Source: Frankia alni ACN14a
GTDB taxonomy: Bacteria > Actinomycetota > Actinomycetes > Frankiales > Frankiaceae
DNA length: 64,000 bases
Reading direction: 5' to 3'
NCBI RefSeq assembly: GCF_000058485.1
Contig: NC_008278.1
Span: 3,652,962-3,716,961 of the forward strand
A program made the translations under genes and the position numbers. Positions 27,831 to 43,680 of the stretch are shown here, one piece after another. The notes beneath the pieces are model-generated. The model was not told where the DNA came from. It ran no database searches and was given only the letters and a program-made list of their open reading frames with translations. Position 1 is the first letter of the stretch, and the number at the start of each line of letters is the position of its first letter.

Positions 27831-29549
27831 TCAGGAACGCGGGCTGGCCGTGGGTGGGGAGAGCGGGCCCGGGGCGTCGCCGAGGGCAGCGGCGGGCGGC
27901 ACTCCCAGCAGAGAACGCAGCCGCCGCGTCGTGGCCTCCAGCTCCGCGGCCGGGCAGACCGCCAGCACGTACCGGTCTGGGCGCAGGATGATGATCTCGT
28001 CGGCAGGGCGGCCCAGGCGCAGGTCGCGGAAGGCACCGTCGATGTCGCGCACCAGCAGCGATCCGGTCGCCGGCTCGGCGTTCGCGGTGGCGGCGGTCGC
28101 CGTCGCGGTGGCGGCGCTGTCCTCCGCGGCCGCGCCGCGCCGCGCGGTGCGGGCCGGGTCGACCCGGATGGTCAGCGCGCCCAGCGCCTGCCAGAACGCC
28201 AGACCCTCCGCGGACAGCGCCGCGGCCGGGTCGCGCCCGAGGCCGATGACGGCGAACGACGGCCCGACGACGTCGTCGAGCTTCATCCGCAGCCGGTCGG
28301 CGGTCTCCACCGACGGCTGGCCGAACATCCGGCCCACCGGGGAGCCCTTGTCCGGGGCGGCCGGAGCCAGGACCGCGCCCTCGGTGTAGCGGGGCAGTGG
28401 CTTGTACTTCATCTGCAGGATGTAGTCCCGCGCCCCCGGGATGCGCTGGACGCCGACGAAGAACGCGTCGCGGACCCGCTCGGTGAGCCGGTTGCGCGGC
28501 TCGTACATCGCGCCGACCCGGGTGGCGAAGGAGACCATGGTCTCGGCGTGGGCGCGCCGCTCGGCGTCGTAGCTGTCGAGGAGGCGTTCGTCGGCGCGGC
28601 CGGCGAGGACCGCGGCGAGCTTCCAGCCGAGGTTCGTCGCGTCCCGGATCCCGGAGTTCATCCCCTGGCCGAAGAACGGCGGCTGCAGGTGGGCGGCGTC
28701 GCCGGCGAGGAACACGGGGCCGACCCGGAAGGTCGTGGCGATGCGGGAGTGGTGCCAGTAGATCCGCCGCCGGGAGATCCGCGGCATCGGCGTGTCCCGG
28801 TAGTGCTTGGCGAGCAGGCCCATGACGACCTCGTCGGTGACCATCCGCTCGTCGGTCTCGTCGGGCAGCAGCTTGAACTCGAAGCGGCGGTGCCCGTAGG
28901 GCAGCGGGATCGTCATCGACGGGCGGACCGGGTCGCAGTGCACCGCCGAGTAGGGCGCGTCGAGCTGGTCGTCGGAGACGTCGACCACCAGCCACTTCGA
29001 CGGGTTCGTTTCGCCGACGAGCTCGACGCCGACGCTGCGGCGCACGAAGCTGCGCCCGCCGTCGGCGCCGACGAGGTAGCGGGCGGTGACGGTGACGTCC
29101 TCACCGCCACGCGTGCCGGTGAGCACCACGCCGTCGGCGGTGCGCTCCAGCCCGGTCACCTCCGTGTCGGCGTACAGCCGCACGCCGGGGAAGCGGTCGA
29201 GCCCGCGGCGCAGCGTCGCCTCCATCAGCGGCTGGAAGAACAGGTTGCGCCGCGGCCAGCCGAACGGCTGCCCGCTCGGCCCCACGTGCGCGAGGACCTT
29301 GCCCTGCGAGTTGTGGTAGCGGATCGGGGCGTTCTGGATGCAGTCGGCGAGCACCTCGTGGACCAGGCCGACGGTCTGGAACGTCCTTAACGACTCGTCG
29401 TCCACGGCGACGGCCCGCGGATAGTCGATGACCCCGGACTCCCGGTCGAGCACGACGGTGCTGACCCCGTAGGTGCCCAGCAGGTTGGCGAGCGTCACCC
29501 CGCACGGTCCCGCGCCGACGATCGCCACATCGGCCGATTCGCTGATCAT
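27831..29549 (-). CDS. FAD-dependent aromatic hydroxylase (MhpA/PheA type)
   Basis: This 572-residue class A flavoprotein monooxygenase starts at ATG 29549 after CGAGGAG. FAD binding is shown by VAIVGAGPCGVTLANLLG (residues 12-17 GAGPCG), the DG motif by LVGADGGRSFVRRSVG, and the GD motif by VFLAGDAAHLQPPFFGQGMNSG. DYPRAVAVDDESLRTFQ and the thioredoxin-like C-terminal region resemble 3-(3-hydroxyphenyl)propionate hydroxylase (MhpA). It would add an ortho hydroxyl to a phenol, giving a catechol for the extradiol dioxygenase at 38874-39434. The run of Ala/Thr around residues 455-490 is a low-complexity insert. Confidence 0.9.
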   Translation of the reverse strand: MISESADVAIVGAGPCGVTLANLLGTYGVSTVVLDRESGVIDYPRAVAVDDESLRTFQTVGLVHEVLADCIQNAPIRYHNSQGKVLAHVGPSGQPFGWPRRNLFFQPLMEATLRRGLDRFPGVRLYADTEVTGLERTADGVVLTGTRGGEDVTVTARYLVGADGGRSFVRRSVGVELVGETNPSKWLVVDVSDDQLDAPYSAVHCDPVRPSMTIPLPYGHRRFEFKLLPDETDERMVTDEVVMGLLAKHYRDTPMPRISRRRIYWHHSRIATTFRVGPVFLAGDAAHLQPPFFGQGMNSGIRDATNLGWKLAAVLAGRADERLLDSYDAERRAHAETMVSFATRVGAMYEPRNRLTERVRDAFFVGVQRIPGARDYILQMKYKPLPRYTEGAVLAPAAPDKGSPVGRMFGQPSVETADRLRMKLDDVVGPSFAVIGLGRDPAAALSAEGLAFWQALGALTIRVDPARTARRGAAAEDSAATATATAATANAEPATGSLLVRDIDGAFRDLRLGRPADEIIILRPDRYVLAVCPAAELEATTRRLRSLLGVPPAAALGDAPGPLSPPTASPRS

Positions 29550-29912: not shown

Positions 29913-30692
29913 TCAGCGGAAGCGGGGCTTGCGCTTCACGTTCGGCGGAACGGGGCTGCCGCCGCGGTTGCCGCGCTGGGTGTAAGACAGCCCGGCCCGC
30001 TGGGCCAGCGACGGGGTCATGTCCAGGGACTCCCAGATGGCGCGGATGGTGCCCTGGATGGCCTCCGGGCGGCGCGCGGCGATCTCGGCGGCGAGTTCCG
30101 CGGCCCGCGGCCAGAGCTGCTCGCGGGATACCACCTCGGTGACGATACCCAGTCGCAGTGCCGTCTCGGCGGTGATCCGCTCGTCGTTGCCCAGCAGCGC
30201 CCAGCGCAGCACGTCGCCCAGGGGGATGTTGCGGGCGAGCATCCCGAGCGGCTCCAGCGCGGAGACGAGACCGCCGTTGGCGTGCGGGTCGAAGAAGGTG
30301 GCGTCCTCGGAGCAGATGATGATGTCCGACTCGTTGAGGAAGTACATGGCGCCGCCGGCGGCGATACCGTGCACCGCGGTGATCACGGGCTTCCAGACGA
30401 ACTGCTTGCGCGGGCCGAGGCGGACCCCGGGGTCCTCCTGGTTCCACTGGTTCTGGTCGTTCCACCAGGGGCCCTCCTGGATGTCCAGCCCCGTGCAGAA
30501 CGCGCGCTCGCCGGCGGCGCGCAGGACGGCGACGCGCACGTCGTCGTCGTCGCGGACCTCGTGCCAGACCGCCTCCATCTCCAGCGTCATCGTCTCCGTG
30601 AAGGAGTTGAGTCGCTCGGGGCGGTTGAGGGTGATGGTCGCGACGTGGTCGTCGACCTCGTACAGGACGGTCGTGAGGTCCTTGAGCGGCAT
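29913..30692 (-). CDS. Enoyl-CoA hydratase/isomerase (crotonase family)
   Basis: This 259-residue crotonase starts at ATG 30692 after GAGG. The oxyanion-hole strand is ERAFCTGLDIQEGPWW and the second one AVHGIAAGGAMYFLNESDIIICSEDATFFDPH. The usual catalytic glutamates of hydratases are not obvious in VSALEPLGMLARNIPLG, where Glu is kept at one position only, so isomerase or C-C lyase chemistry is possible. The C-terminal tail (GGSPVPPNVKRKPRFR) is basic. It lies 61 bases from the isochorismatase-like gene and belongs to the leftward aromatic/acyl-CoA run. Confidence 0.88.
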   Translation of the reverse strand: MPLKDLTTVLYEVDDHVATITLNRPERLNSFTETMTLEMEAVWHEVRDDDDVRVAVLRAAGERAFCTGLDIQEGPWWNDQNQWNQEDPGVRLGPRKQFVWKPVITAVHGIAAGGAMYFLNESDIIICSEDATFFDPHANGGLVSALEPLGMLARNIPLGDVLRWALLGNDERITAETALRLGIVTEVVSREQLWPRAAELAAEIAARRPEAIQGTIRAIWESLDMTPSLAQRAGLSYTQRGNRGGSPVPPNVKRKPRFR

Positions 30693-31401: not shown

Positions 31402-32961
31402 TCAGACGCCGATGCGCCGGCGCAGGTCGGGCAGGGCGACCTTGCCCATCGCGTTGCGCGGCAGCGCCTCGACGATCTCGAGCCGCTCCGGGAGCTTGCG
31501 CTTGTTCAGGCCGCCGGCGAGCAGGTGGTCGCAGAGCTGGGACAGCGTCGGCGGCGTGGCGGCGTCCGCGGGCACGACCACGGCGCAGACCCGTTCGCCC
31601 GTCACCGGATCCGGCACGCCGAGCACGGCCACGTCGGCGACTGCGGGGTGGGCGGCCAGCGGCTCGGAGACCTCCCGGGCGGAGATGTTCTCCATGTTCC
31701 GGATGATCACCTCCTTGAGTCGGCCGGTGACGGTGAGGTAGGACCGCTCGTCGACGAAACCGAGGTCGCCGGTGCGGAAGAAGCCGTCGGCGTCGAACGC
31801 GTCGGCGTCGAGGGCGGCGTCGACGTAGCCGAGCATGAGCTGCGGGCCGCGGACCCGGATCTCCCCGGACTCCCCGGGGTCGGCACGCGATCCGTCGGGG
31901 CGTACGACGACGACCTCGGCGCCCTCGCCGGGCGGACCCTCGGTGCTCGCGTGGTCGGCGTCGGCGTCGTCCGCCCGCCCCCAGCAGACGTACGGGCATT
32001 CGGTCATCCCGTAGCCGGAGACGACGCCCACCCCGCCGAGGGCGTCGCGGACTTCGGCATGCAGGCTCGCCGGACGCGGGGAGCCGCCGCAGAGGAACAC
32101 CCGCGCCCGCGGGAACAGCCGCGCATGCGGGGCGGCGGCCTGGCGGGCCAGGTAGGCCCGGATGAACGGCACCCCGGACCCGACGATCGTCACGCCGTGG
32201 GCGGCGAGCAGGTCCGGGGTGCTCGCCGGGTCGAACACCTCGGCGGTCACCAGCGAACTGCCGCAGCGCAGCGCCGTGAGCAGGTGGGCAAGCCCGCCGA
32301 TGTGGGCGATCGGCGCCAGCACCGCGACCCGGTCGTCGGCCGAGACCGCCAGCGCGTCGCTGAACGTGGTGGACGCGGCGAGCAGCGCCCGGTCGGTGTG
32401 CCGGGCGCCCTTGGGGGCCGAGGTGGTGCCCGAGGTGTAGAGCAGCCAGCGCACCGGCGCCGCCGCCAACGGCCCGGACCCGTCGGCCGAGTCTGGCGAA
32501 TCAGGGGGGAGGCCGGCGGGGTCGGCGTCGGCCAGCTCGGCCGCGTCGGCCACGTCGAGGCCGGGCACCTCGGCGGCGACGGCGCGGGCCATGGCGAGGT
32601 GGTCGAACCCGCGGAAGCTCGCCGCGACGACGAGCAGCCGAGCGCCGGCCTGCCGGGTGATGAACCCGACCTCGCGCTCGCGCAGCATCGTCACCAGCGG
32701 GTTCTGGACCGCGCCCAGCCGGCTGAGCGCCGCGGCGAGGACCATCGTCGAGATCCGGTTCGGCAGCTGCCAGGACACGACGTCGTCGCGGCCGACGCCG
32801 CGCGCCGCGAGCCCCGCGGCGAGCCGCTCGGCCCGGTCGCGGAACTGCGCGAACGTGACCCGATCCCCGCCCGCGTCCACCGCGAGCGGGGCGTCGGGGG
32901 TCAGCGCCGCCCGCGTGCGGGCGAGCTCCCAGAGCGACGCCACTCCCGGCGCCGGGCTCAC
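31402..32961 (-). CDS. AMP-forming acyl/aryl-CoA ligase
   Basis: This 519-residue adenylating enzyme uses GTG 32961, which overlaps the preceding stop (GTGA), so it is translationally coupled to the upstream ligase. Motifs are WLLYTSGTTSAPKGARHT, VSGYGMTECPYVCWG, FFRTGDLGFVDERSYLTVTGRLKE and the C-terminal lysine in PRNAMGKVALPDL. The N-terminal half (VVSWQLPNRISTMVL, SRLGAVQNPLVTMLRE) is nearly the same in pattern as the ligase at 24512-26164, making them paralogues. Two ligases in tandem suggest activation of the parent acid and of a later intermediate. Confidence 0.9.
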   Translation of the reverse strand: MSPAPGVASLWELARTRAALTPDAPLAVDAGGDRVTFAQFRDRAERLAAGLAARGVGRDDVVSWQLPNRISTMVLAAALSRLGAVQNPLVTMLREREVGFITRQAGARLLVVAASFRGFDHLAMARAVAAEVPGLDVADAAELADADPAGLPPDSPDSADGSGPLAAAPVRWLLYTSGTTSAPKGARHTDRALLAASTTFSDALAVSADDRVAVLAPIAHIGGLAHLLTALRCGSSLVTAEVFDPASTPDLLAAHGVTIVGSGVPFIRAYLARQAAAPHARLFPRARVFLCGGSPRPASLHAEVRDALGGVGVVSGYGMTECPYVCWGRADDADADHASTEGPPGEGAEVVVVRPDGSRADPGESGEIRVRGPQLMLGYVDAALDADAFDADGFFRTGDLGFVDERSYLTVTGRLKEVIIRNMENISAREVSEPLAAHPAVADVAVLGVPDPVTGERVCAVVVPADAATPPTLSQLCDHLLAGGLNKRKLPERLEIVEALPRNAMGKVALPDLRRRIGV

Positions 32962-34502
32962 GGGGATTCGGGCGCGGCGAGTTCCGCCCGTAGCTCCCGC
33001 TTGAGGATCTTGCCGGCCGGACCGAGGGGCATCTGGGCGCGGAACGCGTAGCCGCGCGGCTGCTTGTAGCCGGCGAGCTGCTCGCGGGACAGCGTGCGCA
33101 GCTGCTCCTCCAGGTTCTCGGTGGTGATGTCGCCCTTGGGCACCACGACCGCGATCGGGGTCTCGCCCCACTCCGGGTGCGGGACGCCGACGACGGCCAC
33201 CAGGTCGACGTTCGGGTGCGCGCCGAGCACCCGCTCGATCTCGGCCGGGTAGACGTTGAACCCACCGGAGATGATCATGTCGGTCTTGCGGCCGGCGATG
33301 TGCAGGTAGCCGCGCTCGTCGAGGCGGCCCAGGTCACCGGTCCACAGTCCGTCGGGCCGGAAGGTCTCGGCGTTGGCCTCGGGCCGGTTCCAGTAGCCGC
33401 GGGCGACCGAGTCGGCCCTGACGACGATCTCGCCGACCTCGCCCCGGGGCAGCTCCGCGCCGTCGTCGCCGACGATGCGAATCTCCGCGTGCGGGGTCTC
33501 CCTGCCGCACGAGCTGCGCAGCGCGTCGTCCCCGGCGAAGATCGCCCGGTGATCCTCGGGGGTGAGGATCGTGACCTGCCCGCCGGCCTCGGTGGAGCCG
33601 TAGCGCTGCTGCAGGTCGCAGCCGAGCTTGCGGGCGGCCTCCTCGGCGAGGCCGGGCGGGGCGGGCGCCGAGCCGTAGCTGATCCGGCGCAGGCTGGACA
33701 CGTCGATGCCGGGCCGGGCGTCGAGCTCGCGCAGCGTGCGGATCAGCATGGTGGGGATGAACGTGGTCATCGTGACCTTCCACCGCTCGATCGTCTCCAG
33801 CACGGCGACGGGGTCGAAGCGGGGATGGATGACCATCGTCTGGCCCAGGTACAGCCACGACAGCGTCCGGATCATCCCACCCGCGGTGAAGAACGGGGTG
33901 GTCGCCAGGAACACGTCGTCGTGGCGGGACTCGGTGGAGATCGTCGTGTCGAGCACCTGGGCGAGCAGGGTCCGGTGCTCGTGCACCACGGCCTTGGGAC
34001 GACCGGTCGTCCCACTGGTGTAGAGCAGCAGGTGGATGTCGCTGTCGGTGAGGTCCGCCGGGGTGGGGTCGGTGTCGCGGCCGGCGGCGAGCGCCTTGGC
34101 GTAGTTCACGCCGACGGAGTCCCCGCCGATCTCGATGACGGTGTCGAGGGCGGCCAACGGCGCCCCCGGCCCGTCGACGTGGTCGGTGTGCACGATGGCC
34201 GCCCGGGCCCCGCTGTCGGACAGGACGTAGTCGACCTCCGGCCCGGAGAGCCGGATGTTGATCGGCACGAGCACCAGGCCCGCCTTGGCGAGCCCGTAGG
34301 TGATCTCCGGCCACTCCGGGGTGTTGCGCGCGCAGACGGCGACCCGGTCGCCCTTGGCCAGCCCCCGCCCGAGCAGGTAGGTGGCGATGCGGTTGGCGCG
34401 CTGGTCCAGCGACCGCCAGGACAGCTCCTCGTCCTCGTACACCACCGCGGCCTTGTCGGGGTAGCGGCGGGCATTGCGCCGGGCTATGTCGCCGATCAGC
34501 AT
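32958..34502 (-). CDS. AMP-forming fatty acyl-CoA ligase
   Basis: This 514-residue adenylating enzyme starts at ATG 34502 with CGAGG upstream. An in-frame TTG at 34514 is less likely. Motifs are LLLYTSGTTGRPKAVVHEH, RYGSTEAGGQVTILTPED, LWTGDLGRLDERGYLHIAGRKTDMIISGGFNVYP and the lysine in PLGPAGKILKREL. The GGFNVYPAEIE block is typical of medium/long-chain acyl-CoA synthetases (FadD group). It is the first of the coupled ligase pair. A 20-bp tandem array separates it from the Rieske beta gene. Confidence 0.9.
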   Translation of the reverse strand: MLIGDIARRNARRYPDKAAVVYEDEELSWRSLDQRANRIATYLLGRGLAKGDRVAVCARNTPEWPEITYGLAKAGLVLVPINIRLSGPEVDYVLSDSGARAAIVHTDHVDGPGAPLAALDTVIEIGGDSVGVNYAKALAAGRDTDPTPADLTDSDIHLLLYTSGTTGRPKAVVHEHRTLLAQVLDTTISTESRHDDVFLATTPFFTAGGMIRTLSWLYLGQTMVIHPRFDPVAVLETIERWKVTMTTFIPTMLIRTLRELDARPGIDVSSLRRISYGSAPAPPGLAEEAARKLGCDLQQRYGSTEAGGQVTILTPEDHRAIFAGDDALRSSCGRETPHAEIRIVGDDGAELPRGEVGEIVVRADSVARGYWNRPEANAETFRPDGLWTGDLGRLDERGYLHIAGRKTDMIISGGFNVYPAEIERVLGAHPNVDLVAVVGVPHPEWGETPIAVVVPKGDITTENLEEQLRTLSREQLAGYKQPRGYAFRAQMPLGPAGKILKRELRAELAAPESP

Positions 34503-34600: not shown

Positions 34601-34700
34601 ACGGGCCGCCTCAGACCAGGGCGGGCCGCCCCAGATCAGGGCGGGCCGCCCCAGATCAAGGCGGGCCGCCCCAGATCAAGGCGGGCCGCCTCAGATCAGG
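34601..34700 (-). repeat. Five 20-bp tandem repeats overlapping the end of the Rieske beta gene
   Basis: Five units of [A/G]CGGGCCGCC[C/T]CAGA[C/T]CA[A/G]G lie end to end. The last unit contains the stop codon and final codons of the beta-subunit gene, so the array seems to have grown from the 3' end of the gene outwards. No hairpin is formed. Confidence 0.9.
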
Positions 34701-35215
34701 AAGGACATCGTGGAGACGGGGCCGCCGGCGTTGACCAGGTGGACGGTCTTCGCGGCCAGCTTGAGGTCCCCGCCCCGCGCCCGGATCCGGTACTCGTAGC
34801 GGCCGGCCCAGACGGTCAGGTCGAACCGGTACTCGTAGATCACGAAGTTGCCGGCCACGGTCGTCGTGTCGGCGTCCTGGGCGACGACCTCCAGGTTCGT
34901 GATCAGCCGGCGCAGCACCGACGGCGGGGTCTGCGAGTGCCGGTTGCCGGAGTTGAGCTGCGCGACCCGGCTGCGGATCCGGCGGCGGTTGTCGTAGATG
35001 TAGGAGACGTTGACCTTCGGGTCGTGGTCGGGGTGCATCGGCACCCAGTACTTGGCGTCGTCGTCCCACAGCGCCTCCCACTCCGAGTACCGCGCCTCGT
35101 CGGCGAGGCGGGCCTCGGTGTAGATGAAGGAGGCCAGAGCGGGGTCGACACCGGCGGCGGGCACGGCGCCGGCGGGCGCCGCGGCAGCGGCACCGATGCT
35201 GGTGAGGTCGGACAT
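34691..35215 (-). CDS. Aromatic-ring-hydroxylating dioxygenase, beta (small) subunit
   Basis: This 174-residue protein has the NTF2-like fold of Rieske oxygenase small subunits. Marks are FIYTEARLADEARYSEWEALW, DDAKYWVPMHPD, IYDNRRRIRSRVAQL, a central SVLRRLITNLEV and the C-terminal NFVIYEYRFDLTVWAGRYEYRIR. The beta subunit is structural in the alpha3beta3 enzyme. The N-terminal 25 residues are Ala-rich and divergent. ATG 35215 lies 58 bases after the alpha stop. Its stop sits within a 20-bp tandem repeat. Confidence 0.92.
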   Translation of the reverse strand: MSDLTSIGAAAAAPAGAVPAAGVDPALASFIYTEARLADEARYSEWEALWDDDAKYWVPMHPDHDPKVNVSYIYDNRRRIRSRVAQLNSGNRHSQTPPSVLRRLITNLEVVAQDADTTTVAGNFVIYEYRFDLTVWAGRYEYRIRARGGDLKLAAKTVHLVNAGGPVSTMSFLI

Positions 35216-35273: not shown

Positions 35274-36581
35274 TCAGGCGTCGGGGGCGGCGGCGGTGGT
35301 CCCGGTGAGCACCTGCGACCAGTGCTTCCACCAGCCGCGCTGCGGCGTCTCCGCCGACTTGTCGTGGTTGACGATGCCGGTCTCGTCGGTGATGTCGGAC
35401 TCCTCGCCGCGGCGCAGCACGACCCACTCGGGCGAGCCCGCCGCGAGGCCGAGCTGGTTGCGGGCGCCGATCTCGCCGTCGTCGGCGATGAGGAACCCGG
35501 CCGGCCCCATGGCACCCTCGCTGCGGCGCAGGGTCTTCTCGTTGACCTCGTCCGCGCCGGGGATGAGGGCGGGCGTGGTGTAGGCGATCGCCCGGCCCGG
35601 ACCCAGCGGCTCCACCGTCATGATGTTCATCTCGGCGAGGAACAGGTTCGGGAAGATCAGCGTGTGCGGGGGGCCGACGACGAACGCCCGGTGGGTGTCC
35701 GCCGGCCCGCGCGCCTCCTCCATGGCGGCCACGTACTGCGGCAGCTTCTCGCGGCGGATCCGGCCGAACCAGATGAACTCCTCGTCGAGGCGGGTGTACT
35801 CCTTGGCGTAGTCGATCTCGGAGTGGCCGTTGCCGAGGTCGCGGACGTACACCTCGACCTTGGACGGGACGTGGGAGACCTTCGCCGGCTTCACCGCGTC
35901 GTACACGGAGGCGTGGGTGAACAGCGCGTGGTAGCCGTCCACGTTGTTCTCCATGACCATCTTCCAGTTGCAGCGCATGTCGTGCTTCATCCAGCCGGCG
36001 CGCAGGTTCAGCTCGCCGGTGGGGGACAGCGCCAGCAGCCGGTCGAGGGCGACCGTGGAGTTGCCGAGGTGCTCGCGCAGGGTGATCGCCGGCGGGTTCA
36101 GCGAGGCGAAGACGAACCCGCCGTAGCTGTCGACGGCCGAGGCCGGCGCGAGCCCCATCGCGTCGCGCACCGCGTGGAAGCTCGAGCCGTAGCCGTCGCG
36201 CATCGGCACGCCGGTGAGGTGGCCGTCGTTGCTGAACGTCCAGCCGTGGTAGGGGCAGCGGAACGACGAGCTGTTGCCGGCGTCGGCGTTGCACAGCCGG
36301 TTACCGCGGTGCGTGCAGCGGTTGGCCAGGACCCGGACCTCGCCGTCCTTGCCCCGCACGACGATCCACGGCTCGCCGGCGATGCGGCGGGTGACGTAGT
36401 CGCCGGGCTCGGGGACCTCGCTGTCGTGGGCGACGAACACCCAGCCGTTGCGGAAGATCCGGTCCATCTCCTGGTCGTACACCTCCTGGGAGGTGTAGAC
36501 GGAACCGTGGACGCGGTCAGGTTCGACGAGCGCGGCGACGTCCACCTTGCCGACCTGCGCCGACGTGTCCAACTCGGTCAT
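35274..36581 (-). CDS. Aromatic-ring-hydroxylating dioxygenase, alpha (Rieske) subunit
   Basis: This 435-residue catalytic subunit carries the Rieske 2Fe-2S ligands Cys89-x-His91 (CTHRG) and Cys109-x2-His112 (CPYHGW). The mononuclear iron site is in ENNVDGYHALFTHAS, with bridging Asp215 and ligands His218 and His223. It would insert O2 into an aromatic ring to give a cis-dihydrodiol. Its ATG overlaps the upstream DUF35 stop (ATGA). No reductase or dihydrodiol dehydrogenase is adjacent; the ferredoxin at 29647-29844 and the SDRs at 54703 and 57445 are candidates. The substrate class (benzoate, cumate or biphenyl-like) cannot be decided. Confidence 0.94.
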   Translation of the reverse strand: MTELDTSAQVGKVDVAALVEPDRVHGSVYTSQEVYDQEMDRIFRNGWVFVAHDSEVPEPGDYVTRRIAGEPWIVVRGKDGEVRVLANRCTHRGNRLCNADAGNSSSFRCPYHGWTFSNDGHLTGVPMRDGYGSSFHAVRDAMGLAPASAVDSYGGFVFASLNPPAITLREHLGNSTVALDRLLALSPTGELNLRAGWMKHDMRCNWKMVMENNVDGYHALFTHASVYDAVKPAKVSHVPSKVEVYVRDLGNGHSEIDYAKEYTRLDEEFIWFGRIRREKLPQYVAAMEEARGPADTHRAFVVGPPHTLIFPNLFLAEMNIMTVEPLGPGRAIAYTTPALIPGADEVNEKTLRRSEGAMGPAGFLIADDGEIGARNQLGLAAGSPEWVVLRRGEESDITDETGIVNHDKSAETPQRGWWKHWSQVLTGTTAAAPDA

Positions 36582-37189
36582 TGTGAGACCTCCGTCTCTG
36601 ATGGAACTGGTGCGGGGGCGGTGCCGGTTGCCCTGGGCGAGTCGGGGGTGGCGGCGTCGGTGGGTGCGGTGGGTGCGGAGGGTTCGGTGGTACTGAGGGC
36701 TGCGGTGGTACTGAGGGCTGCGGCGGGTACCGCCACCCCGCCGACGACCCGAAAGCCGACGGTGACGGGCCGGCCGATCGCGGGCGCGGACCCGGTGGCG
36801 GTGAGCGTGGTCATGATCAGTCGATGCCCGCTGGTGAGCTCGACATCCACGACGGGGTAGGGCTCGGTAACCCGGACCAGGCCCGGCTCGCGCCGGTGCA
36901 CGAGGGTCACCGCATGCACGGTGCCGGCGCGCTCGACCGGGCGCCAGCGGATGTCGGTGGCACCACAGCCGTCGCAGGCCCGCTGCTCCAGCTCGAGGGC
37001 CAGCCCGCAGTCCGCGCAGAACGGCAGCGTCAGTTCGCCCGCGGCGGCGCCGGCGTAGAGCGGCGCGAGCGACCCGTCGGCCAGCGGCGCCAGCGCCGCG
37101 TCGACCAGCCAGTCCTCGGCGTCCGGCGCGTCCGGCGCATCCGGCGCGGCGAGCGCGGCGGGGATGGCGGCGTCGGTGTTCGGGCTCAT
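36578..37189 (-). CDS. DUF35 zinc-ribbon/OB-fold protein, partner of the thiolase-fold protein
   Basis: This 203-residue protein has an N-terminal linker rich in Ala/Asp/Pro. A zinc ribbon FCADCGLALELEQRACDGCG (CxxC-CxxC) follows, then an OB-fold with AGTVHAVTLVHRREPG and PYPVVDVEL. The last 55 residues are a low-complexity Ala/Thr/Pro tail. DUF35 proteins form complexes with thiolase-fold partners. In the steroid pathway the DUF35 part of ChsH2 activates the aldolase Ltp2. Here the ATG overlaps the thiolase-fold gene stop (ATGA), supporting a stoichiometric complex. It is also coupled to the following Rieske alpha gene. Confidence 0.88.
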   Translation of the reverse strand: MSPNTDAAIPAALAAPDAPDAPDAEDWLVDAALAPLADGSLAPLYAGAAAGELTLPFCADCGLALELEQRACDGCGATDIRWRPVERAGTVHAVTLVHRREPGLVRVTEPYPVVDVELTSGHRLIMTTLTATGSAPAIGRPVTVGFRVVGGVAVPAAALSTTAALSTTEPSAPTAPTDAATPDSPRATGTAPAPVPSETEVSQ

Positions 37190-38352
37190 CGGGACGGCTC
37201 CAGGTCGAGGATCAGGCAGGCGTGGTGGTCGACCCGGCCGCCGATGCCGCCGACGAGGGCCGTGCTCGCCCCGGGCACCTGGCGTGCCCCGCCGGTGCCG
37301 CGCAGCTGCACCACGGCCTCGGCCAGCGGCGTCATCCCCTGCAGGTAGAACCCGGAGAGCTGGCCGCCGCCGGTGTTGACCGGCAGGTCGCCGCCGGGGG
37401 CGGTCGCGCCGGAGCGGACCACCTTGCCCGCCTGCCCGGGCTCGACCAGGCCGTACTCCTCCAGCAGCAACAGGGTCACCACGCTGAACGGGTCGTAGAG
37501 CTCGACGACGTCGAGGTCGGCGCGGGTGAGCCCGGCCATGGCCAGTGCGCCGTCGACGGCGGCCCGACCGCCGCCGAACCAGGACTCGCCCGGGGCGCGC
37601 CGCCGGCGCATCGGGTGGGCCTGGCCCATCCCGCGCACGTGGATGCGCGGGGCCGGGCCGGGCGTGGCCTCGCCGCTGACGACGAGGGCGACCGCGCCGT
37701 TGACCGGCCGGGCGCAGTCGAGCACGCGCAACGGGGTGGAGATCATGCGGCTGGCGAAGTAGCCCTCGGCGTCCAGCGGCTTGCGCACCACCGCGTCGGG
37801 GTTGCCCAGCGCCCACGCACGGGTCGACACGGCCACGGCGCACAGGTCCTCGGGGTCGCCGCCGGACACCGCGAAGTAGCGCGAGGCGAGCAGGGCGTAG
37901 GTGGGAACCGAGCCGAGCACGCCGCTGGCCCGCTCCAGCCCGCGCGCCCCGTCGCTGCCGCCGCTGTGGGCGTAGGTCGACCCGGACGTGCCGCCCGCGC
38001 GCAGCGGCGCGTCGGCGAAGACGCAGACCACGGTGCTGGCCAGGCCCGCCCGGATGGCGAGCACCGCCCGCTGGATCATCGCGACCGCGGTGGCGCCCTT
38101 GATCTCCACGTGCTCGAGCAGGCGCAGGTCGCCGAGGCCGCCCTGGCGGGCCAGCGCCACGCCCAGCCGGTCGGGGCGGACCCCCTGGCTGGAGTTGACG
38201 AGCAGGCCGTCGACGTCACGGGCGGTGAGCCCGGCGTCGGCGAGCGCACCCGCGACGGCCTCGATGGCGAGATCGACGGGCACACCGCCAGGAGAAAGCG
38301 ACATGGCTGTCAGACCGAGGCCGACAACCGCGGGTTCCAGGGGCGGGGCCAT
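37186..38352 (-). CDS. Thiolase-fold protein, SCP-x/Ltp2-like, probable aldolase
   Basis: This 388-residue thiolase-fold protein has VVGLGLTAMSLSPGGVPVDLAIEAV, ARDVDGLLVNSSQ, ALFAD-like VVCVFADAPLRAG, DLDVVELYDPFSVVTLLLLEEYGL and PVNTGGGQLSG. The nucleophilic Cys of true thiolases (CxSG on the N-terminal helix) is missing: the region reads HVEIKGATAVAMIQ. Cys-less members with a Tyr in the ELYD block include Ltp2, which performs retro-aldol cleavage of 3-hydroxyacyl-CoA side chains together with a DUF35 protein. It overlaps both neighbours by 1-4 bases. A true thiolytic activity is therefore less likely. Confidence 0.85.
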   Translation of the reverse strand: MAPPLEPAVVGLGLTAMSLSPGGVPVDLAIEAVAGALADAGLTARDVDGLLVNSSQGVRPDRLGVALARQGGLGDLRLLEHVEIKGATAVAMIQRAVLAIRAGLASTVVCVFADAPLRAGGTSGSTYAHSGGSDGARGLERASGVLGSVPTYALLASRYFAVSGGDPEDLCAVAVSTRAWALGNPDAVVRKPLDAEGYFASRMISTPLRVLDCARPVNGAVALVVSGEATPGPAPRIHVRGMGQAHPMRRRRAPGESWFGGGRAAVDGALAMAGLTRADLDVVELYDPFSVVTLLLLEEYGLVEPGQAGKVVRSGATAPGGDLPVNTGGGQLSGFYLQGMTPLAEAVVQLRGTGGARQVPGASTALVGGIGGRVDHHACLILDLEPSR

Positions 38353-38627
38353 CAGCTCTGGGCTCCCGGGCCCGCGAGCGCGGAGCGCCGCACGGGGTTG
38401 CGCTCGTCCCGGTAGGCGCCGACCCGCAACCAGTCCAGGCGATCCTCGGGCGCGGCCAGGCACAGGCTCGCCAGCTCGATCGGGGACAGCAGGATCGACT
38501 CGCCGGTCTCGATGTCCTCGACCAGCAGACGGGGCGAGTTTCCGCGGCGGTCCACCGAAACCCGCACGGCGGCGAACTCGTTGGCCAGCTCGGCGGACTC
38601 CAGGCCGTCGCGGCGCGGCCGGCTCAC
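38352..38627 (-). CDS. Small protein of unknown function
   Basis: This 91-residue protein has no family I recognise. Its stop overlaps the start of the thiolase-fold gene (TGATG), which supports real translation and coupling. Visible features are a likely beta-rich core, FAAVRVSVDRRGNSPRLLVEDIETGESILLS as two strands with a turn, then PIELASLCLAAPEDRLDWLR, a probable helix. No cysteines suggest a metal site, and there is no signal peptide. As first gene of the leftward run it might be a small subunit or chaperone of the complex. Confidence 0.65.
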   Translation of the reverse strand: MSRPRRDGLESAELANEFAAVRVSVDRRGNSPRLLVEDIETGESILLSPIELASLCLAAPEDRLDWLRVGAYRDERNPVRRSALAGPGAQS

Positions 38628-38873
38628 CGGTGCCCCTCTCGGGCCGGCCGCCCGCCGGTGACGGCGGCGCCGGACGGACGCGCTCCGGGGGATCTGGTGG
38701 AGGCGGGACGGTTCATGGCCCTAGGGTATACTCACTGTCAGAAACGGTGCTGGACTCACGCTCGATCCCGCCGCCCTCGGCCTGGGTGTCCGCCGGACCG
38801 GGTCGTGGCCCCGCTGCGGGACCCTGCCTGCCCGCCGAGGACAAGCGTTCCCGTCGACCCCGAGGGATGGATC

Positions 38874-39434
38874 ATGGCTGCTCCCCCGCCCGCCCAGCTC
38901 ACCCACGTCGGTCTGTACGTCAACGACGTCGACCGCATGGTCAACTTCTACTCGGAGCTGCTCGGCCTGCTCGTCATCGACCAGGGCGACTTTCTGGGCC
39001 GCCGGCTGACCTTCCTCAGCCGCCGCGTCGGCGAGCACCACCAGCTCGTGCTCGTCTCCGGCCGCAAGGTCCCCGAGGGTGAGATCGCGCTGCTCAGCCA
39101 GGTCTCCTTCCGCCTCACCGACGACGACCTCACTTCGCTGCGCTGGTTCCACGACAAGGCCCTGGAACTCGGCGCGACCGGCATGGAGGGTCGTAACCAC
39201 GGCAACAGTTGGAGCATCTACTTCCTGGACCCGGAAGGGAACCGGTTGGAGCTCTACACCCCGACGCCGTGGTATGTCAGCCAGCCCTGGCGGGTGGCGC
39301 TGGACCTGGCCGACACCGACGAGGTGATCCGGGAGAAGACCCAGGCCCTCATCGAGGAGACGGCGACCTGGTCGCCCGTGGAGACGTGGAACGCGTCGGT
39401 GGCGGAGCGTCTGCGCGCCGCCGAGAACGACTGA
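38874..39434 (+). CDS. Single-domain extradiol (VOC) ring-cleavage dioxygenase
   Basis: This 186-residue vicinal-oxygen-chelate protein starts at ATG 38874 after GAGGGATGG. It has paired beta-alpha-beta modules: LTHVGLYVNDVDRMVNFYSELLG and WSIYFLDPEGNRLELYTP. The probable iron ligands are His11, His55 or His56 and Glu126. It would cleave a catechol next to the hydroxyls (meta cleavage). It is about half the length of the two-domain type I enzymes. It heads the rightward operon that continues with hydrolase, hydratase and aldolase. A TGTCA half-site with a nearby TATACT lies in the divergent promoter region (38727-38740). Confidence 0.87.
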   Translation: MAAPPPAQLTHVGLYVNDVDRMVNFYSELLGLLVIDQGDFLGRRLTFLSRRVGEHHQLVLVSGRKVPEGEIALLSQVSFRLTDDDLTSLRWFHDKALELGATGMEGRNHGNSWSIYFLDPEGNRLELYTPTPWYVSQPWRVALDLADTDEVIREKTQALIEETATWSPVETWNASVAERLRAAEND

Positions 39435-39629
39435 CCGCCCGCACCAGGGCCGCCCGCACCAGGGCCGCCCACGCCGAGGCCGCGCGCGACCCCGCCACCG
39501 GCCCGGCCCATGGCGGCGGGGTCGTCCCGCCGCCGACCGGCCGGCCCGCTCTGGCCGCGCCCGCACGCCAGGGGGCGTCCGCGCCCGACGAGTCATCCCG
39601 ACCCGACCAACGAGGATCGTGAGCAGCGC

Positions 39630-40523
39630 ATGACCGACGAGGTCCCGTACCGCAGCATCTGGACGTACCTGCGGGACGTGCCGTTCCGCCAGGACTGGAT
39701 CGACATCGACGGGGTGTCCACCCGCTACGTCGAGGCCGGTTCCCCCGACGCCCCGGCCGTGCTCATGCTGCACGGCACCGGGGGGCACTGGGAGACCTTC
39801 GCGCCGACCATCGGCCCGCTGAGCAAGCATTTCCGCTGCATCGCGGTGGACATGGTCGGCAACGGCTTCTCCAGCAAGCCGGACTACGACTACGAGATCG
39901 CCGTCTACGAGCGCCACCTGCTGGGCCTTCTCGACGCGCTCGGCGTGCAGACCACCTACATCATCGGCATGTCGCTGGGCGCATGGGTCGCCGCCCGGCT
40001 CGCCATCGACGAGCCGGACCGGGTCCGCAAGCTGATCCTGATGTCGCCCGCGGGCCTCATCGCGACCGCGTCGAACATGGCCCGCATCCGGGCCGAGCGC
40101 ACCGCCGCCGTGGACAACCCCACCTGGGAGTCCACCAAGGCGATGTTCAACCACCTGATCGCCGACGAGGCCAACCGGCTGCCCGACGTCATCGCCCTGC
40201 GCCAGGCGATCTACCGGCTGCCGGAGACGCGCAAGGTCATCGATCATGTGCTGATCCTGCAGGACCCCGACGCCCGCGAGCGCAACCTCATCCCGCCGGA
40301 CCAGTGGTCGCGCATCGCCGCCCCGACGCTCGTCGTCGCCTCCGGCAAGGACTTCGGCGAGTACCAGAACACCGCCCGCCAGGTCGCCCGGCTGATCCCG
40401 GACTCGCGGGTCCTGGAGATGCCCGAGGTCAAGCACTGGCCGCACTTCGAGGACCCGGAGCTGTTCAACCCGGCGGCGCTGGCGTTCCTGCTGGGCGGGC
40501 AGAAGGAGTCCGAGAACGCATGA
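39630..40523 (+). CDS. Alpha/beta hydrolase, meta-cleavage product C-C hydrolase type
   Basis: This 297-residue protein has an alpha/beta-hydrolase fold. The oxyanion loop is [13 protein letters not shown], and the nucleophile elbow GMSLGAW holds Ser115. The catalytic His is in [13 protein letters not shown]. The pattern [17 protein letters not shown] and LILMSPAGL match MhpC/BphD/CmtE-type hydrolases, which split the ring-opened 2-hydroxy-6-oxo-dienoate into a carboxylic acid and 2-hydroxypenta-2,4-dienoate. It follows the dioxygenase by 195 bases of GC-rich repeats. Its stop overlaps the next start (ATGA), so it is translated with the hydratase. Confidence 0.9.
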
Positions 40524-41326
40524 CGCTCGATCCCGAACTCGTCGAGGACGCCGCCGCGCGCCTCGACGAGGCCGAGCGCACGCTGACCCCGATCCCGCAG
40601 CTGTCCCTGCAGTACCCGGACATGACGATCGAGGACGCCTACGCCGTCCAGCGCGCCTGGACCGAACGCAAGCTGGCCGCCGGCCGCGAGCTGCGCGGGC
40701 GCAAGATCGGCCTCACGTCGCGGGCGATGCAGCAGGCCGTCTCGATCACCGAGCCGGACTACGGCGCGATCTACGACGACATGTTCTTCGACGACTCCGG
40801 GGTCGTGCCCGCGGGGCGGTTCATCCGCCCGCGGGTCGAGGTCGAGCTCGCCTTCGTGCTCGCCGAGCCACTGTCCGGTCCGGGGGTCACGATCTACGAC
40901 GTGCTCGACGCCACCCGCTACGTGACTCCGGCGCTGGAGATCCTCGACGCCCGGGTGCAGATGAGCGACCCGGCGACCGGGCACCTGCGCACCATCGTCG
41001 ACACCATCTCCGACAACGCCGCCGACGCGGGGCTGGTGCTCGGTGGGCGCGCCGTGCGTCCCGACGAGGTGGACCTGCGCTGGGTGTCGGCGCTGCTGTA
41101 CCGCAACGAGACGATCGAGGAGTCCGGGGTCGCCGCGGCGGTGCTGAACCATCCGGCGAACGGCGTCGCGTGGCTGGCCAACAAGCTCGCCCCGTACAAG
41201 GTGGGTCTCGACCCGGGCCAGGTGATTCTGGCAGGCTCGTTCACCCGGCCGGTGTTCGCCCGCTCGGGCGACACCTTCCACGCCGACTACGGCCCGCTGG
41301 GCGCGATCACCTGCCGCTTCGCCTGA
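40520..41326 (+). CDS. 2-Hydroxydienoate hydratase (MhpD/HpaH family)
   Basis: This 268-residue protein belongs to the fumarylacetoacetate-hydrolase-fold hydratase/decarboxylase family. Key blocks are [55 protein letters not shown], the metal-ligand strand [15 protein letters not shown], and [12 protein letters not shown]. It adds water to 2-hydroxy-2,4-dienoates to make 4-hydroxy-2-oxo acids. The sequence is closer to the HpaH (2-oxohept-3-ene-1,7-dioate) branch than to classical MhpD, as far as pattern allows. ATG 40520 overlaps the hydrolase stop. Its product is the substrate for the aldolase downstream. Confidence 0.9.
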
Positions 41327-41371
41327 GCGGGCGGGGCGAGGAGAGGTTCTGCTGATGTGTGGAGCACTGCG

Positions 41372-42220
41372 ATGACGGCGGCCAGCGCGGCGGGGACCGC
41401 GGGCGTGACCGGCGGCGCCTTCCGGCGCCGGCTGCGCGACCCTCGGCCGGCGATCGGCATGTGGGTGGCCACCGGCAACCCCTACAACGCCGAGATCTGC
41501 GCCGGGGGCGGCCTGGACTGGCTGCTCATCGACGGTGAGCACGCCCCGAACGACGTGCGCAGCTTCCTCGCCCAGCTGCAGGCGGTCGCGCCGTACCCGG
41601 TCGCCCCGGTCGTGCGCCCCCCGACCGACGACCCCGTGATCATCAAGCAGCTCCTCGACATCGGCGCCGAGAACCTGCTGCTGCCGATGGTGGAGTCCGC
41701 CGAGCAGGCCGCGGCGATCGTCGCGGCCACCCGCTACCCACCCGCCGGCATCCGCGGTGTCGGTAGCGCGTTCGCCCGGGTGTCCCGGTGGACCCGGGTC
41801 GAGGGCTACCTGCACCGCGCCGACGACGAGATCTGCGTGATGGTCCAGATCGAATCCGCCGCCGGGCTCGCCGAGTGCGCGGCGATCGCGGCCGTCGACG
41901 GCGTCGACGGGGTCTTCTTCGGCCCCGCGGACCTCGCCGCCTCCCTCGGGCATCTGGGCCGTCCCGACCATCCCGACGTCGTCGAGGCGATCACGTCGGC
42001 GGTCGCGGTGGTCAACGCGGCGGGCAAGGCAGCCGGGGTGAACGCGTTCGCCGAGCCGCTGGCGCGGCGCTATCTCTCCCTCGGCGTCCGGTTCATCCTG
42101 GTGGGGGCGGACGTGACCCTGCTGGCGCGCGGCAGCGAGGAGCTCGCCGCGCGCTACCGCGACGTCGCGGAGAAGAGCCACTCCACCCCACCCCCGATCT
42201 CAGGGAGCGCGACGCTGTGA
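41372..42220 (+). CDS. HpaI-type 4-hydroxy-2-oxoacid aldolase
   Basis: This protein has about 282 residues. ATG 41372 has GGAG seven bases before it; GTG 41357 would add five residues. It is a class II (metal-dependent) HpcH/HpaI aldolase: [71 protein letters not shown] and [13 protein letters not shown]. These enzymes cleave 4-hydroxy-2-oxo acids to pyruvate and an aldehyde. In mhp/bph operons this step is normally done by the unrelated MhpE/BphI class, so this operon has a mixed origin. Its stop overlaps the next start (GTGA); the aldehyde dehydrogenase downstream should oxidise the product. Confidence 0.92.
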
Positions 42221-43680
42221 CCACCACGGTAACGATGCGCATCGGCGCCGAGCGGCGCGCGGGCACGACGACCTTCGACTCGATCGACCCCTACACCGGC
42301 GAAGCGTGGGCGACGGTCGCGGAGGCGAGTCGCGCCGACGTCGACGACGCGGTCGCCGCCGCGCGGGCCGCTTTCGACGGCGGGGAGTGGAGCAAGCTGT
42401 CGGGCCGGGAACGGGGCCGCCTGATGCGCCGCCTCGCGGCCGTCATCGAGGAGCACGCCGACGAGCTCGGCCTCGCCGAGACCCGCGACAACGGCAAGCT
42501 GCTGCGGGAGATGGGCGGGCAGGTCCGCAGCCTTTCCGCCTGGTACGAGTACTACGCGGGCCTGGCCGACAAGATCGACGGCCGGGTGGTCGACACCGGC
42601 CGCCCGGACTACTTCGGCTTCGTCACCCGCGAGCCGATCGGTGTCGTCGGCGCGGTCCTGCCGTGGAACTCCCCGCTGCTGCTGCTCACCTTCAAGATCG
42701 CTCCTGCGTTGGCGGCGGGCTGCACGATCGTCGCGAAGCCGTCCGAGCAGGCCCCGGTGTCGATCCTGAAGTTCGCAGACCTGTTCGAGGAGGCCGGGTT
42801 CCCGCCGGGCGTGTTCAACACCGTCAGCGGCGCCTCCCGCGAGGTGGGGGAGTGGCTTGTCGGCCATCCGGGCGTCGACCGGGTGTCGTTCACCGGCTCG
42901 GAGATCACCGGGGCGGCGGTGGCCGCCGCGGCGGCGAAGCACCTGGCCCCGGTCACCCTCGAGCTCGGCGGCAAGTCGGCGAACATCGTCTTCCCCGACG
43001 CGGACCTGGCCGCCGCGTCCAACGGGCTGATCGCCGGCATCTTCGCCGCCGCCGGTCAGACCTGCATCGCGGGTTCGCGGGCGCTCGTGCACGCCGACGT
43101 CTACGAGGAGGTCGTCGCCCGGGTGGCCGAGCGGGCCGCCCGGATCCGTCTCGGGGACCCGAAGGACCCCGAGACCGAGATGGGCCCGATCTGCTTCCCC
43201 GGCCAGCACGAGAAGATCCGCCGGTTCGTGGCACAGGCCAAGGAGCAGGGCGCCGACATCGTCGGCGGTGGCGGGGACGGCGGACTCGGCGGGCTGTTCT
43301 TCGAGCCGACCATCGTCGCGAACGTCACCAACGACGCCATGGTCTGCCAGGAGGAGATCTTCGGCCCGGTGCTGAGCGTGCTGCGCTTCTCCTCGGAGGA
43401 AGAGGCGATCGCGATCGCCAACGACTCGCGCTACGGCCTCGCCGCCGGCATCTGGACCGCCGACATCCGCCGCGCCTTCCGGATGACCAAGGCGCTGCGG
43501 GTAGGCACCGTGTGGGTCAACGCCTACCGGACGCTGAACTACGCGATGCCCTTCGGGGGTATCAAGAGCAGCGGGTTCGGCCGCGAGAACGGCACCGAGG
43601 GACTGCACGAGTACCTGCAGGAGAAGGCCGTCTGGATCGAGACGACGGGTGCCACCCGCGACCCGTTCGTCCTCGGCTGA
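42217..43680 (+). CDS. Aldehyde dehydrogenase in the meta-cleavage operon
   Basis: This 487-residue enzyme starts with GTG 42217, overlapping the aldolase stop, with AGGGAG upstream. The family motifs are complete: [32 protein letters not shown], the base Glu in [16 protein letters not shown], the nucleophile Cys in [25 protein letters not shown] and [15 protein letters not shown]. It should oxidise the aldehyde released by the aldolase, or an upstream semialdehyde, to the acid. It is distinct from the aldehyde dehydrogenase at 5984-7429 and is followed within 12 bases by the CoA transferase gene. Confidence 0.94.

Follow-up and report, generated by a model that had tools for sequence, protein, structure and literature searches.

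A small protein of an unmodelled family accompanies Rieske dioxygenases and heads a putative retro-aldolase operon in Frankia alni ACN14a

Much of the aerobic degradation of aromatic pollutants begins with Rieske dioxygenases, which are regarded as enzymes of alpha and beta subunits served by a ferredoxin and a reductase. Whether this list of parts is complete is a question raised by a locus in Frankia alni ACN14a. The window analysed is a stretch of 64,000 nucleotides (NC_008278.1, forward-strand positions 3,652,962 to 3,716,961), part of a 7.5-Mb single-contig genome, with Frankia sp. AiPs1 as the closest named relative encountered. On its minus strand an operon begins with the gene of a 91-residue protein, here called P91, followed by genes for a thiolase-fold protein, a DUF35 protein and the alpha and beta subunits of a Rieske dioxygenase. 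A sequence-only reading of this DNA had noted that the first three genes overlap by 1-4 bases and had suggested that their products form a complex, which would be new if P91 were a true third subunit. To which of its neighbours, then, does P91 belong, and what might it do there?

It appears that P91 belongs to the dioxygenase. The operon probably encodes an aryl-acetyl-coenzyme A (CoA) dioxygenase and a retro-aldolase, with P91, not itself catalytic, aiding the assembly or stability of the dioxygenase. The operon as a whole varies on a kind already known; what is new is the P91 family.

The P91 family and its constant partner

Among five Frankia congeners P91 is under purifying selection, with a ratio of non-synonymous to synonymous substitution rates (dN/dS) of 0.14-0.33, and this, with the same position at the head of the operon in other genera, argues that it is truly coding. 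Neither P91 nor seven of its relatives match any model in Pfam or NCBIfam, apart from one sub-threshold chance match to FBO_C, thus the sequence-only reading was right to call the protein unrecognised, and it is genuine and conserved. P91 carries the family core NEFA..(V/I)....RL.(V/I)...(S/T)....L.(P/A)(L/I).L..(L/I) and scores 114.5 bits against the family profile, with relatives from outside the training set scoring 66-74 bits. Members are about 72-112 residues long and share EF, R(L) and a later L; no cysteine or histidine is conserved, which makes a part in metal or redox chemistry unlikely. One further candidate, L022:7075-7344, failed to align with the family and was removed. AlphaFold2 predicts four strands and helices for P91, with a confidence score (pLDDT) of 70 for the full chain and 80 when trimmed. 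Foldseek found no significant match to this model; PUR-alpha repeats came up repeatedly with a weak similarity (TM up to 0.59, E about 1), which was not taken as evidence. The family profile found no credible match among sequences in the PDB, and searches of the open-access literature found no description of any small protein accessory to Rieske dioxygenases.

Direct searching brought up full-length relatives that lead the same operon in Streptomyces, Tomitella, Williamsia, Mycolicibacterium and a second Frankia, and a plasmid of Rhodococcus DK17 has the same P91-headed operon. More distant relatives in Rhodococcus HM1 and Acuticoccus follow the alpha and beta genes, with no thiolase or DUF35 gene. 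When 247 actinomycete genomes were searched with the family profile, and the positions of P91 compared with those of Ring_hydroxyl_B matches in the same genomes, 35 copies emerged; as only part of the candidates were scored, these counts are lower bounds. All but one of the copies (34/35) lie on the same strand as a Ring_hydroxyl_B gene and within 7.2 kb of it. Most (26 of the 35) are directly downstream of the beta gene with a gap of 18-274 nucleotides, seven are about 3 kb upstream of it with the thiolase, DUF35 and alpha genes between, and one is 7.2 kb away. The remaining copy is on a contig of 3.4 kb whose end falls within the cluster, with a second contig of the same genome carrying thiolase, DUF35, alpha and beta genes. 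The Frankia gene studied here precedes beta by 3.3 kb, in one operon with it and on the same strand. For at least 20 of the 35 copies no thiolase/DUF35 pair was found in the stretches fetched.

The same picture emerges from 15 plasmid loci of Actinomycetota, Deinococcota, Bacillota, Thermomicrobiota and Archaea, where P91 neighbours a Rieske dioxygenase; it almost always follows beta directly, and the thiolase/DUF35 pair is mostly absent. The post-beta position is kept in Thermus, Geobacillus, Thermomicrobium, a haloarchaeon and in phthalate- and naphthalene-type operons. In the phthalate operon of Arthrobacter keyseri pRE1 and the naphthalene operon of Rhodococcus opacus the homologue directly follows beta; unlike the Frankia operon, operons of this type lack the thiolase/DUF35 genes, carry a true dihydrodiol dehydrogenase or ferredoxin and reductase genes, and do not have P91 at their head. 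Relatives in a conserved position are thus found in both Bacteria and Archaea. Within a single clade the P91 gene always precedes those of the thiolase-fold and DUF35 proteins, but in the wider family it mostly follows beta. The constant partner of the P91 family is the dioxygenase, not the thiolase; P91 implies a Rieske dioxygenase and the converse fails.

On a tree of alpha subunits with 86 rows, the long branches of which leave the deeper joins uncertain, all clusters with P91 and the thiolase gene first form that one clade with a support of 100/100. Grouped with it are clusters in which P91 follows beta, and ipf clusters, which have no P91. The presence of P91 is clustered on the tree, needing 8 changes where shuffles need about 28 on average. 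Most simply read, P91 was originally a post-beta gene and was relocated to the head of the operon in the P91-first clade.

The thiolase-fold protein and its DUF35 partner

The second gene product has the fold of the thiolase superfamily (Thiolase_C_1, E 1.2e-38; 6ok1, E 7.1e-40 over residues 6-365), its best PDB relatives by sequence including 6ok1 (Ltp2-ChsH2DUF35) and 9myr (Sal). The nucleophilic cysteine, HDCF, GHP and C-terminal cysteine of thiolases are missing: the active-site positions read KGATA, YDPF and FYLQGM in the clade, against VENFCATG, HDCF and FGHP in the thiolases of sister clusters. The earlier description of this protein as lacking cysteine is therefore apt for the catalytic positions, which are substituted, but not for the chain as a whole, which has Cys110, Cys171, Cys213 and Cys379. 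The sister clusters combine P91-carrying Rieske dioxygenases with thiolases that retain the catalytic Cys/His and a longer DUF35 protein of about 450 residues, a similar gene set with an apparently different chemistry.

In the steroid side-chain retro-aldolase Ltp2-ChsH2(DUF35) (6ok1), Ltp2 uses Tyr294 as base and Tyr344 as acid (PMC12329534). Y286 (in YDPF) and Y336 (in GGQLSGFYLQGM) of the Frankia protein align with these and are invariant in the clade, whilst the DUF35 protein matches the DUF35 chain of ChsH2. With the thiolase residues lost, the Ltp2 tyrosine pair kept and a partner that is ChsH2-like, the thiolase-fold/DUF35 pair should work like a retro-aldolase. Weighing against this is the histidine of the Ltp2 YDHF motif, replacement of which costs Ltp2 14-fold in efficiency (PMC12329534), and which is proline in the clade (YDPF) and alanine in the ipf types. 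The Frankia DUF35 protein also stands alone, with OB_ChsH2_C in Pfam and no MaoC hydratase domain; since both the histidine and the MaoC partner are absent the protein was not filed as Ltp2. The beta-hydroxyl that a hydratase provides in the Ltp2-ChsH2 system would in Frankia be provided by the dioxygenase.

A further likeness is to the ibuprofen upper-pathway genes ipfABDEF of Sphingomonas Ibu-2 and of plasmid pIBU218 (Rhizorhabdus wittichii MPO218), which likewise encode a CoA ligase, a two-subunit Rieske dioxygenase, a thiolase-like and a DUF35 protein. IpfDE is credited with the release of propionyl-CoA and the ipf genes with 4-isobutylcatechol (PMC9195938). The thiolase-fold proteins of pIBU218 and Frankia share 46.7% identity and both lack the thiolase residues, and the alpha subunits of the two types fall in one supported group. 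The gene order differs, P91-D-E-A-B-F in Frankia against A-B-D-E-F in ipf, as do the lower-pathway genes.

A route may be proposed from the chemistry and from the ipf likeness. The ligase would make an aryl-acetyl-CoA (or 2-aryl-propionyl-CoA), and the Rieske alpha3beta3 enzyme would hydroxylate the ring at the carbon to which the side chain is attached and at the adjacent one, giving a beta-hydroxyacyl-CoA. The thiolase-fold/DUF35 pair would then remove the side chain in a retro-aldol cleavage, with Tyr286 as base and Tyr336 as acid, the products being acetyl- or propionyl-CoA and a catechol with no need of a dihydrodiol dehydrogenase. The divergent operon, with a VOC protein, hydrolase, hydratase, aldolase and aldehyde dehydrogenase, would carry the catechol into central metabolism. 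The retro-aldolase/Rieske route known from ibuprofen degradation would thereby be placed in Frankia and other actinomycetes.

The role of P91

For P91 itself we infer a role in assembly or stability, as it is small, lacks redox residues, is probably co-translated and is nearly always adjacent to beta. It may bind the nascent or mature alpha/beta dioxygenase, probably transiently, possibly aiding the docking of ferredoxin. That it is kept beside dioxygenases from Actinomycetota to haloarchaea, classical operons included, suggests a missing component, one that could help explain why actinobacterial dioxygenases are poorly expressed in foreign hosts. It is quite possible, though we put it forward tentatively, that P91 founds a family of dedicated Rieske-dioxygenase accessory proteins, assembly factors or transient third subunits, in Bacteria and Archaea. 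Such a family has perhaps been overlooked because its members have fewer than about 110 residues and may be dispensable for expression in E. coli.

Several observations weigh against this role. P91 is missing from about 40 further Rieske beta loci of the genomes searched and from the ibuprofen-type thiolase/DUF35 clusters (pIBU218, pBN3, Chelativorans). As the ipf clusters work without it, P91 is not needed for the proposed chemistry in general. In the Frankia-type clade the gene abuts that of the thiolase and not beta. The Rhodococcus naphthalene dioxygenase 2B1X has an alpha subunit nearly identical to one from a P91-bearing operon, yet no P91 chain is in the PDB, which disfavours a tightly bound subunit. 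The NarAaAb enzyme of Hydrogenibacillus is active in E. coli as alpha and beta only, with a foreign ferredoxin and reductase (PMC11176777), which may speak against an essential role of P91.

The best surviving alternative, which we nevertheless consider unlikely, would make P91 a third (gamma) subunit stably present in the active alpha3beta3 dioxygenase. The near-constant position after beta, often overlapping or 20-100 nucleotides away, in several phyla and in Archaea would suit such a subunit, as would the purifying selection, but the P91 profile matches no PDB chain although 2B1X and the phthalate 3,4-dioxygenase 9jp5 have been solved, and the many related dioxygenases without an adjacent P91 would have to do without it.

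A modulator of ferredoxin docking or electron transfer, for dioxygenases using [3Fe-4S]-type ferredoxins as NarAaAb-type enzymes do, is rather improbable. In 11 of 46 P91 loci, compared with 2 of 43 others, a small ferredoxin is encoded no more than 3 kb from beta (Fisher P 0.015, ignoring relatedness), but most P91 loci have no ferredoxin nearby, the sample is phylogenetically clustered and the P value is weak.

The third subunit of a thiolase-fold/DUF35 complex, as first proposed for this locus, is doubtful indeed even within the P91-first clade. P91 does head the thiolase and DUF35 genes in every cluster of the clade, and the three genes do overlap, by 1 base in TGATG at the P91-thiolase junction and by 4 bases in ATGA at the thiolase-DUF35 junction, the chain reaching at least four genes as a further 4-base overlap joins DUF35 to the Rieske alpha gene. 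These overlaps are conserved in 8/9, 9/9 and 7/9 related clusters respectively. However, in the annotated pDK3 stretch 3 of the 12 remaining pairs of neighbours on one strand are also joined by overlaps of 1-4 bases, and being ordinary in these operons such overlaps provide no argument for a protein complex, only for an operon with likely translational coupling. The family elsewhere accompanies dioxygenases, usually without the pair, homologous ipf-type pairs lack P91, and the solved complexes 6ok1 and 9myr have no P91-like chain.

It is hardly credible that P91 is a dihydrodiol dehydrogenase, the product name of the Thermus and Rhodococcus opacus relatives in NCBI records and very likely a misannotation, as an SDR enzyme of about 250 residues with a Rossmann fold would be expected, P91 has 91 residues, no family match and no predicted nucleotide-binding fold, and a genuine SDR dehydrogenase gene adjoins the P91 relative in several operons.

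Operon layout and neighbouring genes

Table 1. Features of the P91 operon and the divergent operon, numbered from the first nucleotide of the window
Feature	Position	Strand	Remarks
Promoter/operator-like element TTTCTGACA-N-TATAC	38720..38746	-	recurs upstream of P91 in related clusters
P91, 91 residues, unmodelled family accompanying Rieske dioxygenases	38352..38627	-	GTG start, GAGAGGGG about 8 nucleotides upstream
Thiolase-fold protein without thiolase catalytic residues, proposed retro-aldolase (IpfD/Ltp2-like)	37186..38352	-	ATG start; Tyr286/Tyr336 align with Ltp2 Tyr294/Tyr344
DUF35/ChsH2-C-type OB-fold protein	36578..37189	-	CxxC...CxxC zinc ribbon, Ala/Ser/Thr-rich C-terminal tail
Rieske ring-hydroxylating dioxygenase alpha subunit	35274..36581	-	overlaps DUF35 gene by 4 bases
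Rieske dioxygenase beta subunit	34691..35215	-	
AMP-binding acyl-CoA ligase	32958..34502	-	position of IpfF
Second AMP-binding ligase	31402..32961	-	4-base overlap with first ligase
VOC-family protein, candidate one-domain extradiol dioxygenase	38874..39434	+	divergent operon
Alpha/beta hydrolase related to HsaD/BphD meta-cleavage hydrolases	39627..40523	+	
HpaH-type 2-oxo-hept-4-ene-1,7-dioate hydratase	40520..41326	+	above NCBIfam cutoff
HpaI-like aldolase	41357..42220	+	
Aldehyde dehydrogenase	42217..43680	+	

The HpaH type of the hydratase may, speculatively, hint at a further carboxylated arm on the ring of the substrate. The Frankia, Streptomyces, Tomitella, Williamsia, Mycolicibacterium and Rhodococcus clusters share, ahead of P91, an element like TTTCTGACA(C/G)TCGTATACGATATGACTATGAG, and in this region CTGACA, 17 bases and TATGAG resemble a promoter with an operator inside. 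The C-terminal tail of the DUF35 protein (36595-36750, minus strand) is rich in Ala, Ser, Thr and Pro and has a short internal repeat, AALSTT.

A second aromatic-acid module appears to adjoin the operon. A flavin adenine dinucleotide (FAD) monooxygenase at 27831-29549 on the minus strand scores 809 bits, against a cutoff of 546, with the model for MhpA-type 3-(3-hydroxyphenyl)propionate hydroxylase, and an enoyl-CoA hydratase gene lies near it at 29913-30692.

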